DNA of 44,586 bases, from positions 16,423 through 61,008 of the forward strand of contig KI547041.1 of the NCBI GenBank assembly GCA_000497405.1, given 5' to 3'. Under the pieces are notes generated by a model. That model saw only the letters and a program-made list of their open reading frames with translations. It ran no database searches and was not told the origin of the DNA. The translations under genes were made by a program, and so were the position numbers. Origin of the DNA: Streptomycetaceae bacterium MP113-05 (lineage in GTDB: Bacteria > Actinomycetota > Actinomycetes > Streptomycetales > Streptomycetaceae). This document shows positions 37,824-44,586 of this stretch, piece after piece (position 1 is the stretch's first letter; each line of letters opens with the position of its first letter).

Positions 37824-39260
37824 CTATCCCGGGTTCCGGTCCTCGCCCTCGCCCTCGTTCTCGCCCTCGTTCTCGTCCTCGCGCTCGGCACGGCGCAGGG
37901 CCTCGGACTCGATGCGCGTTTTGGCCGCGGACATGGCGCGCCGCTTGTACTCGGTCGGCCGGTGGGCGAGGTCCTCGGGCTGGTCGATGTCCGGGATGCC
38001 GTCGAGGTCCTCGTCGCGGATCTCGTCCTCCCACAGCTTCGCGTACTTCGCGTCGCGCAGCTTCAGCAGGACGCACGCCAGTACGGCGGAGATCAGCGAG
38101 CCGATCAGTACGGCCGCCTTCACATGCTCCCGGGTCCCGGCGTCGGTGAAGGCCAACTCGGTGACCAGCAGCGACACGGTGAAGCCGATACCGGCCAGCA
38201 TCGAGAGGCCGGCCACGTCCGTCCAGGAGAGCCCGGGACTCAGCCGGGCCCGGGTGAAGCGTGCCGCGACGTAGGTGCCGCCGAAGATGCCCAGGAACTT
38301 GCCCGCGACCAGTCCCAGGATGACGCCCAGCGGTTCCGGCTGCCGGAACGTCTCCGCGAGGGCGGAGCCGGACACGCTCACCCCGGCCGCGAAGAGGGCG
38401 AAGAACGGCACGGCGAAACCGGCGGACAGCGGACGCACCAGATGCTCGATGCGTTCGGCCGGCGAGTGCTCCTCGTCCCCTCGCGGCGCGCAGCGCAGCA
38501 GCATGCCCATCGCGACACCGGCGATGGTGGCGTGGACGCCGCTGTTGTACATCAGTGCCCAGATCACCAGGCCCAGCGGGACGTACACGTACCAGCCGTG
38601 CACTCGCAGCCGGTGGTGGAGCAGCCAGTAGAGGGCCAGGCAGGCGAGGGCACCGCCGAAGGCCGCCCAGTTCAGCGTGGAGGTGTAGAAGACGGCGATG
38701 ACCATGATCGCGCCGAGGTCGTCGGCGATGGCCAGGGTCAGCAGGAACGCGCGGATGCCGGACGGCAGGTTGGTGCCGATCACGGCCAGCACCCCCAGGG
38801 CGAAGGCGATGTCCGTGGCCATCGGCACCGCCCAGCCGTGCAGTTCGCCACCGCCGGCGACGTTCACACCCACGTAGAACAGGGCTGGTACCGCCATGCC
38901 GCAGACCGCGGCGACGATGGGCAGTGCAGCGGCAGCCGGCTTGCGCAGTTCGCCGACGACCAGTTCGCGCTTCAACTCGATGCCGGCGGCGAAGAAGAAG
39001 ATCGTCAGGACGCCGTCCGACGCCCAGTGGCCCACGGACAGATCCAGCCCCAGCGCGGGGATACCGAAGTGGAATTCGCGGACGGTCTGGTAGACGTCGC
39101 TGAGGGGACTGTTCGCCCAGACCAGCGCGACCACAGCGGCCAACAGCAACAGCAGGCCGCCGGCGGTCTCGGTACGCAGCGCGTCGGTGAGGAGCTTCCG
39201 CTCGCGGGCCGAGGGAAGCCCGAAGAGGGCTGTCGGCTGCTTGTCCGAGAAGAGGTGCAT
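37824..39260 (-). CDS. nhaA: Na+/H+ antiporter NhaA
   Basis: A 478-residue inner-membrane antiporter exporting Na+ or Li+ in exchange for protons. There are about 12 hydrophobic helices between residues 30 and 410. The family motifs are present: FFFAAGIELKRELVVGEL (85-105), the T-D of VPMATDIAFALGVLAV (T149-D150), and the ion-binding pair D180-D181 in LAIADDLGAI. The cytosolic C-terminal tail after about 420 is highly charged and ends in an acidic Glu/Asn/Gly repeat encoded by a hexanucleotide repeat. The ATG at 39260 has GGAG 5 nt upstream. It is convergent with iolD and divergent from the PucR-type regulator gene. Confidence 0.95.
   Translation of the reverse strand: MHLFSDKQPTALFGLPSARERKLLTDALRTETAGGLLLLLAAVVALVWANSPLSDVYQTVREFHFGIPALGLDLSVGHWASDGVLTIFFFAAGIELKRELVVGELRKPAAAALPIVAAVCGMAVPALFYVGVNVAGGGELHGWAVPMATDIAFALGVLAVIGTNLPSGIRAFLLTLAIADDLGAIMVIAVFYTSTLNWAAFGGALACLALYWLLHHRLRVHGWYVYVPLGLVIWALMYNSGVHATIAGVAMGMLLRCAPRGDEEHSPAERIEHLVRPLSAGFAVPFFALFAAGVSVSGSALAETFRQPEPLGVILGLVAGKFLGIFGGTYVAARFTRARLSPGLSWTDVAGLSMLAGIGFTVSLLVTELAFTDAGTREHVKAAVLIGSLISAVLACVLLKLRDAKYAKLWEDEIRDEDLDGIPDIDQPEDLAHRPTEYKRRAMSAAKTRIESEALRRAEREDENEGENEGEGEDRNPG
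37841..37888. repeat. Hexanucleotide tandem repeat in the 3' end of nhaA
   Basis: Eight imperfect copies of a CCTCGC/CCTCGT-type hexamer. On the coding strand they give alternating Glu and Asn/Gly/Asp near the C-terminus. Unit number could vary by slippage without changing the frame. Confidence 0.8.
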
Positions 39261-39507
39261 GAAGACTCCGGGTGTGTCTGGGCAGGACGGAACGCTGCCG
39301 ACCAGACTTCCCGGCTCACCTGTGTGCGATCTTGATGTTGTCCCTCCACCGTATATGCATCTCGCCGCGAAGACGGAGTGGCGGGCGTCACACCTTGCGG
39401 GCCGGCGGGACCGCCCGTGGCCGCGGTCGGCCGGGCTCGCCTACGCTGAGCCTCCGGACAGGGGACGGGGCAAGACCGGACCCACGCCAAGGGGGCGGAC
39501 GTACAGG

Positions 39508-40614
39508 GTGCACGACGACGCGATCTCCGACGAGTTCCTCGGCTCCTACCCGGCGCTGCTGGCCGAGGTATCCGAGACCGGTCGCCTGCCGCGCCGGGAC
39601 GAGCTCGAGGCCTTCCGTGCGCTGGGCGAGAGCGCCGCCGAGTGCGGCCACGGACTGCGCCGACTGGCGAGCCTCTACATCCGGAGCACCCGCAGCGTCT
39701 GGGGCACGCTGCCCGGCATCGCGCGATCGGCCACCGCCGCGGAGCGTGCCCGTACCGGTGACGCGCTGCTGGCCGCACTCGACGCCGCGGTCGCCGCGCT
39801 CGGTGACGGGCACGAGCGGGCGCTGCGCATCGCGATGCGACAGGAGGAGGGCGAGCGGCGCGAGTTCATCGACGACCTGCTCTACGGCCGCAGCGACCTG
39901 GGCCGGCTCGCGGAACGTGCGCAGCGTTTCGGTCTCCGCCTGGCGGGGGCGCACGCGGTGGCGGTGGCGAGTGGCCCGGAGAAGTACGACGACGTACACC
40001 CGAAGGTCCGCTGGATCGAGCGTGAACTGCTCGGCCGCTTCGGTGAGCGTGACGTGCTGCTGTTCACCAAGGACGGCCGGCTGGTGTGCATCGCACCCAG
40101 CACCGAGGCCACCGTGCTGGAATCCTTCGCGCAGCACGCAGAGGCACCGGGGCCCGGTTACACCCCGGCCCGCCGGGTGGCGTTCGGCCGTCGGCACAGC
40201 GGGGCGAGTGGCGTCGTCCGCAGTTACGAGGAGGCGCTGAACTCCCTCGACCTCGCCGACCGTCTGGGCCTGGACACGGTCCGGTTGAACGCCTCCGAGC
40301 TGCTGGTCTTTCCGGTGCTGCTGCGTGACCGGGAGGCGATGGCGGACTTGGTCCGCACCGTGCTCGGGCCGCTCACCGAGGCACGCGGCGGCGCGGTGCC
40401 GCTGCTGGACACGCTCGCTGAGTGCGCCGCTGCGGGATACGTCAACGCCGAGGCGGCGCGCCGCCTCGGCGTCAGCGTGCGGACGCTGTCCTACCGGCTG
40501 GAACGCATCCGCAGCCTCACCGGCTACGACCCCGGCGACGCCCTCCACCGCTACACCCTGGAGACCGCGGCCATGGGCGCCCGCCTGCTGAACTGGCCGG
40601 CTGAGGACCTCTGA
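39508..40614 (+). CDS. PucR/CdaR-family transcriptional regulator
   Basis: A 368-residue regulator with the usual three parts. The N-terminal region (about 10-115: LAEVSETGRLPRRDELEAFRALGESAAECGHGLRRLASLYIRS) matches the RsbR/PucR-type sensory helices. A central degenerate GGDEF-like domain covers about 150-280. The C-terminal PucR HTH (LLDTLAECAAAGYVNAEAARRLGVSVRTLSYRLERIRSLTGYDP, about 295-340) binds DNA. The GTG at 39508 is preceded by AAGGGGG, rather distant (12 nt), so the start is approximate. A TACGCT hexamer at 39440-39445 and an AT-richer patch near 39332-39360 are candidate promoter elements in the 247-bp divergent spacer to nhaA. Target genes unknown; neighbours on either side are possible. 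Confidence 0.85.
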   Translation: MHDDAISDEFLGSYPALLAEVSETGRLPRRDELEAFRALGESAAECGHGLRRLASLYIRSTRSVWGTLPGIARSATAAERARTGDALLAALDAAVAALGDGHERALRIAMRQEEGERREFIDDLLYGRSDLGRLAERAQRFGLRLAGAHAVAVASGPEKYDDVHPKVRWIERELLGRFGERDVLLFTKDGRLVCIAPSTEATVLESFAQHAEAPGPGYTPARRVAFGRRHSGASGVVRSYEEALNSLDLADRLGLDTVRLNASELLVFPVLLRDREAMADLVRTVLGPLTEARGGAVPLLDTLAECAAAGYVNAEAARRLGVSVRTLSYRLERIRSLTGYDPGDALHRYTLETAAMGARLLNWPAEDL

Positions 40615-40680
40615 GCCTGCCGGTCTCCCGCACGACCGCCGTTCGAGCCCCTCCGGTGCGGACGTGAACTCGGTGTGAAG

Positions 40681-40699
40681 ATTGCCGGTTTCTGGCAAT
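40681..40699. promoter_or_regulatory. Inverted repeat upstream of the YqiJ-YqiK-ATPase cassette
   Basis: ATTGCC at 40681-40686 and GGCAAT at 40694-40699 face each other across 7 bases. It is the only symmetric and AT-containing element in the 147-bp leader of the cassette. Candidate operator or hairpin. Confidence 0.4.
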
Positions 40700-40761
40700 G
40701 TGCTGTCGGTGCGTCCCGTGTCAACCTGAGGCCACACGACAAGGGGCACGGGGGTGCGGTG

Positions 40762-41373
40762 ATGGGGGAGTTCCTGCGGGCAGCGCTGGATTTCCCCGCT
40801 GTGCTGTTCGGCTTCGCTCTGCTGGTGGTCGTCGGGTATTGGCTGTTCGTGCTGGTGGGGGCTACGGGTCTCGACGCCTTCCCGGGTGGTGAGGACGTCG
40901 GTGCGGACTCCGCGCAGACCGCACCGAGGACGGGGCTGGTGCTGCCGGGGCTTCGTGGAGCACCCGTCGCAGTGACCGTCTCCCTGCTGACGGCGATTGC
41001 ATGGTTGTTGTCTCTCGTAGTGACCGTACTGGTGCCCGGGACGCTGCTTCGGCTTGCCGCTCTCCCGCCGGCGCTCCTCGTGGCCCTGGCTCTGACACGG
41101 CTGTCGCTCCACCCGCTGCGCAGCCTCGCCCGGCCCGAGGAGTGCATCTCACACCCGGATTTCGTGGGCCGGGTGTGCGTGGTCCGCACCGGACGGGTGG
41201 ACGCGCACTTCGGCCAGGCCGAGGTCGCGGCGCCGGACGGCGCGGTCGCGCTCGTCCAGGTCCGCACGGACGACCCGCTGCCCTCCGGCCTCACCGCCGG
41301 AGCGAAGGCCCTGATCTACGCGTACGAAGCCGAGGGCGGCCACTTCCTCGTCGCCCCCTACGACGCTCTCTGA
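40762..41373 (+). CDS. OB-fold/NfeD-like inner-membrane protein (YqiJ type)
   Basis: A 203-residue membrane protein. Hydrophobic segments lie at 11-34, 68-92 and 94-115 (VLFGFALLVVVGYWLFVLVGA; VAVTVSLLTAIAWLLSLVVTVLV; LRLAALPPALLVALALTRL). They are followed by a cytosolic beta-rich OB-fold domain at about 130-200 (GRVCVVRTGRVDAHFGQAEVAAPDGAVALVQVRT). This is the layout of YqiJ, the NfeD-like partner of the flotillin YqiK. It probably scaffolds or anchors the flotillin in the membrane. The ATG at 40762 has GGGGG about 7 nt upstream. The flotillin gene begins 17 nt after the stop, so the two form an operon. Confidence 0.85.
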   Translation: MGEFLRAALDFPAVLFGFALLVVVGYWLFVLVGATGLDAFPGGEDVGADSAQTAPRTGLVLPGLRGAPVAVTVSLLTAIAWLLSLVVTVLVPGTLLRLAALPPALLVALALTRLSLHPLRSLARPEECISHPDFVGRVCVVRTGRVDAHFGQAEVAAPDGAVALVQVRTDDPLPSGLTAGAKALIYAYEAEGGHFLVAPYDAL

Positions 41374-41390
41374 CTCGAAGGAAGGTCCGT

Positions 41391-43400
41391 ATGGACGCCA
41401 TCTCCACCGGACTCGGCGTGCTCATCGCCGTCGTCCTGCTCATGGGCATCGCCCTGCTGTTCGCGGTCGGGCGGTTGTTCCGCAAGGTGCCACAGGGAAA
41501 GGCGCTGATCGTCTCCCGGATGAGGAAGGTGGACGTCACCTTCACCGGCGCGGTCGTGCTGCCGGTCCTGCACCGGGCCGAGGTCATGGACATCTCGGTG
41601 AAGACCATCGAGATCGGCCGCACCGGGCACGAGGGCCTGATCTGCCAGGACAACATCCGCGCCGACATCCGCATCTCGTTCTTCGTGCGCGTCAACAAGA
41701 CGCAGGAGGACGTCGTCAAGGTCGCGCAGGCCATCGGCACCGAGCGTGCCAGCGACCGGGCCACCCTCCAGGACCTGTTCAACGCCAAGTTCTCGGAGGC
41801 GCTGAAGACCGTCGGCAAACAGCTCGACTTCGCCGACCTCTACACCAAACGGGACGAGTTCCGGGACCGGATCATCGCCGTCATCGGCACCGACCTCAAC
41901 GGCTACAGCCTCGAGGACGCCGCCATCGACTACCTGGAGCAGACGCCGCTCGGGCAGTTGGACCGCGACAACATCCTGGACGCCCAGGGCATTCGCAAGA
42001 TCACCGAGCTCACCGCGGCCGAGCACATCCGTACCAACGAGTGGCAGCGCAACGAGGAGAAGGAGATCACCCGCCAGAACGTCGACGCCCGCGAGTCCGT
42101 GCTGGAGCTCGAACGGCGGCAGGCCGACGCGGAGATCCGGCAACGGCGTGAGGTCGACACGGTACGTGCGCGCGAGGAGGCCGAGACGGCCCGGGTCCAG
42201 GCGGAGGAGCAGCTCCGGGCGCACAGCGCGCAGCTGAAGACCGAGGAGTCCCTGGGCATCCAGAACGAGAACCGCGAGCGGGAGATCGCCGTCGCGAAGC
42301 TCAACCGGGACCGCGTCGTCGCCATCGAGAACGAGCGCATCGAGAAGGACCGCCTGCTGGAGGTCATCGCCCGCGACCGGGAGACCCAGCTCCGCCGCAT
42401 CTCCGCGGACAAGGAGGTGGAGGCCGAGAAGCGCGACATCGCAGACGTCGTCCGCGAGCGCATCGCGGTGGAGAAGACCGTCGCCCAGCAGGAGGAGGAG
42501 ATCAAGAAGCTGCGCACGGTGGAGGAGGCCGAGCGCGAGCGTCAGGCGCTGATCATCGCGGCCGAGGCCGAAGCGCAGGAGCGCCTGGTGAAGGACATCA
42601 AGGCGGCAGAGGCCGCCGAGCAGGCGGCGCAGCACCGGGCGGCCGAGGAACTCACCATCGCCGAGGCGCGGCGCAAGTCCGCCGACATGGAGGCGCAGGC
42701 GGCCGTACGGCTGTCCGAAGGCAGGCGGGCGGAGGCTGCGGCCGGCGGCCTGGCCGAGGCGGAGGTGCAGGAGCGGATGGCCGACGCCCTGGCCCGGACC
42801 CGGCAGGTGGAGGCCCAGGCGGCCAAGGACATGGGTCTCGCGGAGGCGGAGGCCAGGCGCGAACTCCTCAAGGCCGAGGCCGACGGCATCAACGAAAAGG
42901 CCGCCGCCATGGCCGCGCTGGACGAGGCGAGCCGGGAGCACGAGGAGTACCGGCTGCGCCTCGATGCGGAGAAGGAGATCCGCATCGCCGGGATCGACGT
43001 CCACCGGCAGATCGCCGAGGCGCAGGCCACGCTGGTCGGCGCCGGGCTGGAGAAGGCGAACATCGACATCGTCGGCGGCGACTCGGTCTTCTTCGACAAG
43101 CTGGTCGGGGCGATCACCGCAGGCCGCAGCGTCGACGCGTTCGTCGACGGCAGCAAGTCCGTGCAGGCGATGGCCGGACCGTGGCTGGACGCCGACGGCG
43201 AGGGGTCGACGTTTACCCGCGACATGACACGGATGGTCGCCGGCCTGGGCGCCGGGGGCGTGCGTGACCTGACGGTGGCGGGCCTGCTGAGCAAGCTGAT
43301 CGCGGACGAGGGCCCGCACACCGCGCAGTTGACGTCACTGCTGGACGCGGTGCGCCGGACCGACGCCGGGAACGTACCGGTGTCGGCACTCGCCGCCTGA
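41391..43400 (+). CDS. Flotillin-like SPFH/band 7 protein (YqiK type)
   Basis: A 669-residue membrane-associated scaffold. One N-terminal membrane helix (6-30: TGLGVLIAVVLLMGIALLFAVG) precedes the SPFH/band 7 domain (about 31-215: VPQGKALIVSRMRKVDVTFTG, VMDISVKTIEIGRTGHEGLICQDNIRADIRISFFVRV). A very long alanine/glutamate/arginine-rich coiled coil follows (about 225-570), typical of flotillin repeats. The C-terminal domain (about 575-669: LVGAGLEKANIDIVGGDSVFFDKLVGAI) drives oligomerisation. It would form detergent-resistant membrane rafts. The ATG at 41391 has AAGGAAGG 5 nt upstream. It lies between the YqiJ-like gene and the large DUF3686 ATPase gene; a strong hairpin follows its stop. Confidence 0.93.
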   Translation: MDAISTGLGVLIAVVLLMGIALLFAVGRLFRKVPQGKALIVSRMRKVDVTFTGAVVLPVLHRAEVMDISVKTIEIGRTGHEGLICQDNIRADIRISFFVRVNKTQEDVVKVAQAIGTERASDRATLQDLFNAKFSEALKTVGKQLDFADLYTKRDEFRDRIIAVIGTDLNGYSLEDAAIDYLEQTPLGQLDRDNILDAQGIRKITELTAAEHIRTNEWQRNEEKEITRQNVDARESVLELERRQADAEIRQRREVDTVRAREEAETARVQAEEQLRAHSAQLKTEESLGIQNENREREIAVAKLNRDRVVAIENERIEKDRLLEVIARDRETQLRRISADKEVEAEKRDIADVVRERIAVEKTVAQQEEEIKKLRTVEEAERERQALIIAAEAEAQERLVKDIKAAEAAEQAAQHRAAEELTIAEARRKSADMEAQAAVRLSEGRRAEAAAGGLAEAEVQERMADALARTRQVEAQAAKDMGLAEAEARRELLKAEADGINEKAAAMAALDEASREHEEYRLRLDAEKEIRIAGIDVHRQIAEAQATLVGAGLEKANIDIVGGDSVFFDKLVGAITAGRSVDAFVDGSKSVQAMAGPWLDADGEGSTFTRDMTRMVAGLGAGGVRDLTVAGLLSKLIADEGPHTAQLTSLLDAVRRTDAGNVPVSALAA

Positions 43401-43402
43401 AG

Positions 43403-43434
43403 CGGTGGTGCCCCGGGGGCCCGGGGCACCACCG
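43403..43434 (+). terminator. Strong hairpin between the flotillin and ATPase genes
   Basis: CGGTGGTGCCCCGG at 43403-43416 pairs perfectly with CCGGGGCACCACCG at 43421-43434 around GGGC, starting 3 nt after the flotillin stop. It could terminate most transcripts or stabilise the upstream mRNA, leaving the ATPase gene less expressed. Confidence 0.65.
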
Positions 43435-43496
43435 TCGGCACGCAGCGTTTCGGGACCTGCCCGGTGTGGCGGCAGGACGGGGAGGGAGACCCACGG

Positions 43497-44586
43497 ATGG
43501 ACAGTCAGGCGCAGGTCGCACAGGAGCAGACGGACGGCCGCCCGGCCCCGCCGGGGACTGGGGACGACACGACCTACGCGGTACTCCGGAGACGGATGGC
43601 CGCAGCCGCTGAGCAGCTGTCAGGGCGTACGTCGGAGCTCAACGCCCGGCGCACGGAGACCTTCGGCGCGGGCCGCCTCACGATCGAGGCCACTCTCCGG
43701 CTCGAAACCGCGGTTCCCTGCGTGCTGCGCGACGTGGTCCAGGTCGGCGGGCTGCTGCTGGCCGGCGGGGCACCCGCGGGCGCGGGCGGCTCCGGTGCCG
43801 GGGCGAGGGGCGGGTCAGGGACCGGGGCGGAGGTCCGGGCAGAGGACGTCTTCACCCTGTACCGCCCCACCGCCGAAGGGCTCGGAGCCGTTCCGTCCAC
43901 GGTGTCGCCCGGCCTGCTGGACGCCCCGCGCTTCCGGCGGGACTTCGCCGAACTGCACCGGTTCTTCCGTGGAGCGCGTCTGCTGCGGCTCCACCGGTCC
44001 GGTGCGTTCCTGCTGGCGGCCTTCCGGACGGGGGACGGCGCCGGGGACGTGCGCGTGCTGCGCTGGAGATGTCCGGCCGACGGCGGGGCACCGGAGTACC
44101 TGGGCGCGGCGGGTGGCGCGGCGGGCGGCGCGGTCCCGGCCGACCTCGACTGGACGGTCGTCGGACGCGACGCGCAGGTGCCCGGCCGGCACCCGCACAT
44201 CGGTGTGGACGGAGCCGTGTTCGTCAGCAACGAGGGCGGGCGCCTCACAGTCAAGACGGAGAACGACACCGAGACCGCCGAGGGAGTCTGGTCGGAGCCG
44301 GTGGAGGACCCGCTGCAGTCGCTGGCCGACGCCGACATCCGGTGGGCGAGGGTCGGCCCGCTGGTACTGCTGCGGATCCGCCCCTACAACGAGGACGCCC
44401 ACCGGCACCTGGTGGTCAACGAACGCAACAAGGAGGTCGTGCGCCTTCCCGCGGGAGGGGACGCGTTCCGTCTGCTGCCCGACGAGCAGGGGGTGCTCTT
44501 CCCCGGTGGCTGCTACCTGGCCTCCGCGCCCGCCGGTGAGGCCCTCCGCACCTTCCCGAGCGGCCCGGGGCGGTGGACCGCCGAGG
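43497..44586 (+). CDS. DUF3686-family 'DNA repair ATPase', N-terminal part (runs off the right edge)
   Basis: An open frame from ATG 43497 (GGAGGGAG about 9 nt upstream) continues without a stop to the window end, giving 363 codons. It reads MDSQAQVAQEQTDGRP..., then AAEQLSGRTSELNARRTETFGAGRLTIEATLRLETAVPCVLRDVVQVGGLLLAG. This is the start of the DUF3686/ATPase N-terminal region found in giant (about 1600-residue) proteins annotated as DNA repair ATPases, with a C-terminal AAA motor. Further matches are FAELHRFFRGARLLRLHR, FLLAAFRTGD, DLDWTVVGRDAQVPGRHPHI and VEDPLQSLADADI. It has no signal or membrane segment. A Gly/Ala-rich insertion lies near residues 84-105. The order YqiJ-YqiK-ATPase suggests a joint membrane-associated function. 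The motor domain itself is outside the window. Confidence 0.85.
   Translation, partial: MDSQAQVAQEQTDGRPAPPGTGDDTTYAVLRRRMAAAAEQLSGRTSELNARRTETFGAGRLTIEATLRLETAVPCVLRDVVQVGGLLLAGGAPAGAGGSGAGARGGSGTGAEVRAEDVFTLYRPTAEGLGAVPSTVSPGLLDAPRFRRDFAELHRFFRGARLLRLHRSGAFLLAAFRTGDGAGDVRVLRWRCPADGGAPEYLGAAGGAAGGAVPADLDWTVVGRDAQVPGRHPHIGVDGAVFVSNEGGRLTVKTENDTETAEGVWSEPVEDPLQSLADADIRWARVGPLVLLRIRPYNEDAHRHLVVNERNKEVVRLPAGGDAFRLLPDEQGVLFPGGCYLASAPAGEALRTFPSGPGRWTAE

Follow-up and report, generated by a model that had tools for sequence, protein, structure and literature searches.

A conserved flotillin and giant ATPase gene pair in Streptomycetaceae bacterium MP113-05 and its candidate PucR-type switch and cation-stress regulon

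Results

A three-gene cassette beside a regulator gene and an antiporter gene

The last part of a 44,586-nucleotide stretch from Streptomycetaceae bacterium MP113-05 (contig KI547041.1, positions 16,423 to 61,008; the whole stretch is referred to as the window) carries three co-directional genes, which encode a small YqiJ/YuaF-like membrane protein, a YqiK-type flotillin and a giant ATPase with a DUF3686 domain. We analyzed this cassette computationally and found that the flotillin gene and the ATPase gene stay together at nearly every locus surveyed, and that in Streptomyces the cassette is preceded by a conserved palindrome that also precedes genes for PucR-like regulators and sodium/proton exchangers.

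The order and direction of the three genes and their spacing (17 nt between the yqiJ-like gene and yqiK, 96 nt between yqiK and the ATPase gene) agreed with an initial annotation of the window when checked by open reading frame (ORF) calls. The account given there contained neither the gene for a PucR-like regulator directly upstream of the cassette nor the transporters that share its operator. An nhaA-like gene lies divergent from the regulator gene (Table 1). Genes were called with a home-made ORF caller based on the GC content of third codon positions (GC3).

A GC-rich hairpin starts directly after the yqiK stop codon. It is possibly an attenuator or an mRNA processing hairpin and could lower expression of the ATPase relative to the flotillin. 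We rejected it as a conserved terminator: the hairpin is strong in the window, yet a stem of at least 8 bp was found in just 16 of 81 Streptomyces loci.

Table 1. Features of the cassette and its surroundings, in window coordinates
Feature	Position	Strand	Basis
nhaA-like Na+/H+ antiporter gene	37824..39260	-	ORF call and match to gene annotated nhaA in locus L159, tblastn 1e-136
PucR-like transcription regulator (GGDEF_2 + HTH_30)	ORF 39187-40614, scanned 39214..40614	+	Pfam, linkage
Operator TTGCCGGTTTCTGGCAA	40682..40698	.	1 mismatch to TTGCCGG-N3-CCGGCAA; conserved flanks extend to ~40678-40702
-10-like element CAACCT	40722..40727	+	Columns +40 to +46, conserved in an alignment of 77 upstream regions
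YqiJ/YuaF-like small membrane protein, 203 aa	ATG 40762..stop 41373	+	About three hydrophobic segments, conserved C-terminal part
YqiK-type flotillin, 669 aa	ATG 41391..stop 43400	+	SPFH/Band_7 and long charged coiled-coil-like region (coiled coil by eye)
Perfect inverted repeat, 14-bp stem, 4-nt loop	43403..43434	+	Between yqiK and ATPase gene
DUF3686 ATPase, N-terminal part (beta-propeller)	ATG 43497..44586, continues past window end	+	Pfam, model

The flotillin and the DUF3686 ATPase form a conserved core

To follow the cassette we used a genus sample of 121 Streptomyces genomes and a phylum-wide sample of 296 genomes. In the genus sample, the flotillin and DUF3686 (above its cut-off) were found in the identical 62 genomes, and the other 59 lacked both (62/62 vs. 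0/59, Fisher P = 5e-36); one of these 59, G393, has a DUF3686 fragment below the cut-off. The flotillin gene was located directly upstream on the same strand at 63 of 65 DUF3686 places, a count that omits two of 67 DUF3686 rows, which are second pieces of one gene in G000 and G193. The exceptions were a contig edge (G391) and the G393 fragment. Phylum-wide, DUF3686 was present in eight of the 296 genomes, namely seven Streptomyces, including the genome of the window, and G113, which belongs to a different family and shows the same arrangement.

We further collected 111 cassette loci via the ATPase, some of the Streptomyces loci being duplicates. With duplicates kept, the flotillin gene was directly upstream of the ATPase gene in all 111, which comprise 85 loci from Streptomyces, 18 from other Actinomycetota and eight from outside the Actinobacteria: Deinococcus (two), Pseudomonas (plasmid pQBR103), Proteus, Hymenobacter, Vibrio, Halomonas and Photobacterium. 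The proposal of the initial annotation that the genes form one cassette is thus borne out by co-occurrence and adjacency. A location of DUF3686 genes mostly away from yqiK, which had been named as evidence against it, was not what we found in this survey, which stops short of the chromosomes of other phyla. The conserved core is two genes, flotillin and ATPase, often accompanied by that of the YqiJ/YuaF-like protein as a third.

The YqiJ/YuaF-like partner is divergent and sometimes lost

In the flotillin, Pfam detected a Band_7/SPFH domain (2.4e-12, residues 32-175) when the N-terminal 236-aa piece was scanned, while neither Flot (PF15975) nor Band_7 was listed for the full-length protein. The homologue on pQBR103 gave Band_7 only. 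A search of solved structures returned none for YqiK at E 0.01.

The small membrane protein matched no Pfam family, and Pfam YqiJ_N matched only one of its 19 homologues, weakly (E 0.035). An hhalign comparison (probability 99.9, E 6e-33) aligned its profile with that of the counterparts in Pseudomonas, Proteus, Halomonas, Deinococcus, Vibrio and Photobacterium. With no Pfam match but a profile match to other phyla, the protein is, from sequence comparison, best labeled as a YqiJ/YuaF-like partner of flotillins linked to DUF3686 and not as a strict Pfam YqiJ; its hydrophobic segments and its position before the flotillin gene agree with this label. No solved structure was matched by the YqiJ-like profile at E 1.

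A YqiJ-type membrane ORF before the flotillin gene was missing, by a heuristic criterion, in 21 of 109 loci (duplicates kept). In 18 of these 21, the operator described below lies just 216-569 bp before the flotillin match, leaving little or no room for yqiJ. The gene is missing from the Streptomyces cassettes L080, L085, L105, L106, L117, L118 and others. In further Streptomyces (e.g., L052, L063 and L072) the membrane part is kept and the conserved C-terminal part seems, by eye, to be lost.

The ATPase combines a predicted beta-propeller with a C-terminal AAA+ domain

The window contains the first 363 codons of the ATPase gene and ends within it at an assembly gap of 10 N (L005:6010-6019, L005 being the window locus in our collection). 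The reading frame changes across this gap, as expected from the arbitrary length of the filler. Beyond it the gene runs to L005:9897, giving about 1,650 residues in all; the ORF measured 1,614-1,744 codons in 18 of 20 relatives and 999 (split) and 1,536 codons in the other two. The part within the window matched DUF3686 (PF12458) far above the cut-off (2.4e-87; 293.7 vs. 25 bits). The post-gap part yielded the remainder of DUF3686 (114 bits), DUF7902 and a C-terminal AAA domain (PF00004, 24.5 bits vs. a cut-off of 21.2), and no peptidase family was listed for it. The Walker A motif SPPGYGKTTL and the motif DDIQH were conserved across 31 aligned rows.

The N-terminal part was modeled as a beta-propeller (pLDDT 88, pTM 0.86), for which the best chain in a fold search was borderline (Z 8.6; 5.1 Å over 207 residues). 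The model of the C-terminal AAA+ domain (mean pLDDT 80, pTM 0.52) gave tied best fold matches with NorQ/CbbQ and with the second domains of ClpA/B/C (Z ~9-10.6; ClpC, 3.5 Å over 143 residues).

A palindromic operator precedes the cassette in Streptomyces

Upstream of the cassette, positions 40681-40699 form the palindrome ATTGCC-N7-GGCAAT, which is the sole site in the window with at most one mismatch to TTGCCGG-N3-CCGGCAA. Two weaker matches with two mismatches and fifteen with three bring the sum to 18, compared to 4.5 expected from shuffles; weak matches by themselves therefore mean little. Identical upstream stretches and loci whose yqiK falls within 1300 bp of an edge were excluded. Of the 79 distinct Streptomyces cassette loci that remained, 77 have a site with at most two mismatches between 200 and 1500 bp ahead of the flotillin match, and none of 26 cassette loci outside Streptomyces has one. 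Among shuffles, 6 of 1050 had such a site, and the site rate in real DNA predicts 1.3 to 4.7 of the 79 loci. Outside upstream regions, real DNA contained one site per 80 kb in the cassette loci and one per 22 kb in the loci of PucR-like genes, true sites included; the rate within ATPase genes (one site in 268 kb) understates the background.

Across the 77 aligned upstream regions, information was 1.45 bits per column inside the site compared to 0.3-0.5 in the flanks. About 23 nt beyond the end of the operator lies another conserved block, CAnnAT. It resembles a -10 element, which suggests a promoter role for CAACCT in the window. The operator would then sit against the -35 region, the position expected of an activator site. 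In 12 genomes the pattern YTGCCGG-N3-CCGGCAR occurred 49 times, vs. seven for the backward control. The operator is also kept before cassettes without an adjacent PucR-like gene. In the window's own genome, four other strict-pattern matches examined were all inside genes called by our ORF caller.

The PucR-like gene is linked to cassette and operator

The regulator contains HTH_30 (PF13556, 1.9e-11) and GGDEF_2 (PF17853, 2.2e-17) and is thereby of the PucR type. The actual start codon probably lies some 100 codons into the ORF, since for most relatives the alignment begins at residue ~65-128 of the 466-aa protein. Linkage was analyzed in 31 of the 62 cassette genomes (33 cassettes) and, for comparison, in 22 cassette-free genomes. 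Of the latter, 20 came from the 59 in the genus sample and the remaining two were G161 and G246; G330, counted among the 22, turned out to carry a relic cassette. Cassette ends for the distance figures given here and below were hand estimates. A PucR-like gene was located within 3 kb of 23 of the 33 cassettes (0.08 expected), 18 of them divergent, and it was present in all 31 cassette genomes, compared to 10 of 22 cassette-free ones (P = 2.4e-6). The S. griseus cassette (locus L120), for example, combines a divergent PucR-like gene with a perfect operator.

Twenty-five PucR-like genes have no intact cassette next to them; in the 450 bp upstream of 16 of these we identified an operator with at most two mismatches, where at most 0.6 were expected. 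Among 44 cases in which the regulator is divergent from the cassette (duplicates kept), the distance between the center of the site and the beginning of the regulator match was 70-154 bp in 42 and 279 and 306 bp in the other two.

The operator is shared with genes for sodium/proton exchange and flotillin partners

We then asked which other genes carry the operator. Loci L224-L243 had been selected by operator matches, and counts that include them were set aside. The references for the gene classes (exchanger, Flot, TrkA_N, NfeD1b and small NfeD/YuaF-like) were chosen for their preceding site, and the counts include each class's own reference. In cassette loci, whose selection did not involve the site, the operator preceded seven of 12 Na+/H+ exchangers (PF00999), one of the seven being the gene that defines the class, vs. 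12 of 1018 unclassified genes (P = 1.6e-10); without references, six of 11 exchangers remain. It also preceded one of five Flot-type flotillins and none of 78 ATPase genes.

In the PucR loci, the operator was detected before six of nine second small NfeD/YuaF-like proteins (a label given by eye, without a Pfam match), four of 10 TrkA_N genes, three of 10 exchangers, two of 11 Flot-domain flotillins and the single NfeD1b gene, vs. four of 388 other genes. Removal of the references leaves 4/7 small NfeD/YuaF-like, 2/8 TrkA_N, 1/10 Flot and 0/0 NfeD1b; in L192, L202 and L204, one divergent site was counted for two genes. By these counts, flotillin/NfeD-like genes and genes for monovalent-cation transport have one site in common. 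Near the PucR-like genes of L180, L189, L190, L192, L197, L202 and L204 we observed a second flotillin (Band_7 and Flot), NfeD1b, a small NfeD/YuaF-like protein and TrkA_N together with the palindrome. Given the real-DNA background and the reference bias stated above, the contrasts between observed and expected counts remain large.

A search for orthologues of the exchanger matched 14 of the 31 cassette genomes, one of them at no more than 32% identity, and gave 14 close orthologues in 13 genomes. Eleven of these 14 are located within 12 kb of a cassette (0.05 expected; 10 of 13 without the query gene), and nine have the operator at -142 to -144 (eight of 13 without the query), positions that were converted by hand for the minus-strand exchangers of L244, L249 and L254 and that agree with our other site searches. 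The nhaA gene was found within 20 kb of 11 of the 33 cassettes, where 0.33 were expected. As an operator target nhaA was rejected (0/11 in cassette loci, 0/7 in PucR loci), and its linkage to the cassette stands.

Discussion

A proposed flotillin-plus-AAA+ machine in a cation/membrane-stress regulon

We propose that the cassette encodes a conserved flotillin-plus-AAA+ machine which is placed under a local PucR-type switch and belongs to a cation/membrane-stress regulon, a reading drawn from sequence data to which we give an even chance of being right. In this proposal, the PucR-like protein would bind the palindrome beside the -35 region, most likely as an activator, and induction would occur when cations, pH or osmotic conditions put the membrane under stress. 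YqiK would form a membrane SPFH cage, tuned by the YqiJ-like protein where present; the ATPase may dock via its beta-propeller, and its AAA+ ring could remodel or extract the caged membrane proteins, for which the co-regulated antiporters are plausible clients. Such a machine would be a protease-free counterpart of HflKC-FtsH.

The ideas of cage and client draw by analogy on a published flotillin SPFH cage (PMC11260169), on FloA-NfeD of S. aureus, which holds unfolded proteins and is described as ATP-independent (PMC11222466), and on stomatin, which surrounds aquaporin-1 and a urea transporter (PMC12407830). The full version for Streptomyces, a PucR-controlled ion-homeostasis program that keeps Na+/H+ antiporters inside a flotillin cage and remodels them with the cage's own cytosolic propeller-AAA+ unfoldase, is speculative, and we consider it unlikely as it stands. 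If it were true, a membrane microdomain would serve as a chamber, driven by ATP, for quality control or switching of ion transporters.

Several observations weigh against our proposal. The PucR-like gene also occurs in the 10 cassette-free genomes mentioned above, and nine of the 25 PucR-like genes without a neighboring intact cassette lack the operator. The looser pattern TTGCCG-N5-CGGCAA was not commoner than its backward control (22 vs. 38 sites in 20 genomes). Cassettes outside Streptomyces are without the operator, so that this form of regulation is lineage-specific. On the cation side, none of 17 TrkA_N genes in cassette loci has the operator, nhaA is not among its targets, and in 17 of the 31 cassette genomes a close exchanger orthologue is missing or replaced by a distant one. 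The window's genome has its exchanger orthologue on contig C13 without a copy of the operator, so the cation link there rests on the neighboring nhaA. Membership in a common accessory island may account for the antiporter link, and the ATPase could be uncoupled from the flotillin by the hairpin that follows yqiK. For the AAA+ domain, the model has a pTM of 0.52, and its fold scores are tied between MoxR- and Clp-type domains.

Alternative explanations

A general envelope-stress function is an alternative, though an unlikely one in our estimate: the trio would act with PspA-family proteins as an ESCRT-like remodeler of the phage-shock-protein (PSP) type that repairs membranes, and the antiporter link would be incidental. 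In its favor, CesT/Tir-PspA operons are the setting of the trio in Ravi et al. 2024 (PMC11237479). On pQBR103 we found a PspA gene about 4 kb upstream in the same-strand cluster, and in Hymenobacter Tir-PspA directly upstream of the cassette. However, two PspA queries (tblastn, E ≤ 1e-3) matched none of the 111 loci outside L151 and L153, a search confined to these loci, and the operator strongly marks exchangers. These queries and one Tir-like query (tblastn) matched just the loci of their origin, L151 and L153, and none of them matched the window locus L005. Alternatively, the PucR-like gene, exchangers, nhaA and cassette might merely travel together as an accessory stress island and share the site by descent, with no joint function. 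Patchy presence (62/121 Streptomyces, 8/296 in the phylum sample), plasmid copies and the wide-range clustering with nhaA and exchangers would be expected of such an island. We nevertheless regard it as improbable, since the operator keeps a fixed place before exchangers and, mostly, before divergent PucR-like genes despite diverged flanks and persists before cassettes that have no PucR-like gene beside them.

A role in DNA repair, or a link from membrane to DNA as the initial annotation had suggested, is very improbable and was rejected as unsupported. Pfam and sequence records carry the label "ATPase involved in DNA repair", and a search of solved structures with the ATPase returned solely stretches of RuvB, NVL and Rix7 around the P-loop. 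Yet the weak resemblance to RuvB is confined to 35-43 residues at that place, MoxR- and Clp-type AAA+ domains score as high or higher, and a membrane flotillin adjoins the ATPase in each of the 111 loci. The gene for YqiJ, the membrane anchor of that annotation, is evolutionarily dispensable and has been lost in some Streptomyces in which flotillin, ATPase and operator are kept. The other parts of the initial annotation fared well, including the cassette, the pairing of an NfeD/YuaF-like protein with a flotillin, the added AAA+ ATPase (PF00004 above cut-off, Walker motifs and an AAA fold in the model), the theme of membrane stress and the possible operator, which is real and recurs in 77 of 79 Streptomyces loci.

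Relation to known systems

The trio itself is known. Ravi et al. 2024 (PMC11237479) already describe it, including the propeller-coiled-coil-AAA+ architecture, and report that abbreviated operons of flotillin and YqiJ/YuaF, "in some cases" with the AAA+ protein, are more widely distributed. Both their CesT/Tir-PspA-linked and abbreviated operons encode the same three gene products as the window cassette, the former differing in that no PspA or CesT/Tir-like match was detected beside the actinobacterial cassettes searched. The words "PucR", "antiporter" and "Streptomyces" do not appear in the main text of that article. The YqiJ-YqiK and YuaF-YuaG (NfeD2-SPFH2) operons described by Hinderhofer et al. 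2009 (PMC2636767) likewise combine a small membrane NfeD-like gene with a flotillin gene, whereas the window cassette adds a giant ATPase and its YqiJ is divergent, without a Pfam match, and sometimes lost.

Functionally, HflK/C-FtsH is the analogue in which an SPFH cage meets an AAA+ protein acting on membrane proteins, but no protease domain was found in the post-gap part of the window ATPase, which is apparently cytosolic, and the SPFH family is different. FloA-NfeD resembles the cassette as a client-holding membrane scaffold of a flotillin and an NfeD partner; it is described as ATP-independent, and the window cassette includes a dedicated ATPase. The fold search with the C-terminal domain placed MoxR-type AAA+ proteins (NorQ, CbbQ) among its best hits, with ClpA/B/C second domains scoring equally, and the window ATPase has a propeller and a coiled coil fused in front. 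A flotillin has been tied to cation/pH stress before: Zhang et al. 2005, as cited in PMC4453477, report an alkali-inducible flotillin of B. halodurans, which belongs to another phylum; an ATPase is unmentioned in that passage.

Our literature search found no report joining PucR, Streptomyces and flotillin, did not find the name DUF3686, and returned none joining "DNA repair ATPase" with flotillin; the combination of Streptomyces, flotillin and antiporter led to a single review, which deals with quorum sensing and biofilms. Within this literature the cassette is known, and the operator, regulator and exchanger link appear to be new. Relative to the known trio, the novel elements are its own regulator and operator, the proposed cation-transport regulon and the dispensable YqiJ. 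The pair bears on the roles of bacterial flotillins and of a 1,600-residue "DNA repair ATPase", and its constant association and the operator it shares with sodium/proton exchangers point to one regulator, one site and one stress to try.

Mobility and neighborhood of the cassette

No match to the cassette was found in 50,697 phage records, and a 2.8-kb stretch of the Proteus ATPase gene had no DNA match in E. coli. Large plasmids carry the cassette in L151 (pQBR103), L150 and L156 (Deinococcus plasmids) and L158 (a linear Streptomyces plasmid). On pQBR103 it lies downstream of a YjfI-PspA-rhomboid-DUF2491-DUF350-DUF1190-glutathionylspermidine synthase cluster. TerD-family genes were located within about 10 kb of the Streptomyces cassettes L052, L063, L072, L073 and L158. 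The relic in G330 (L187, G330:C2) consists of yqiJ and short C-terminal fragments of the ATPase, with no flotillin match, and has retained a perfect operator.

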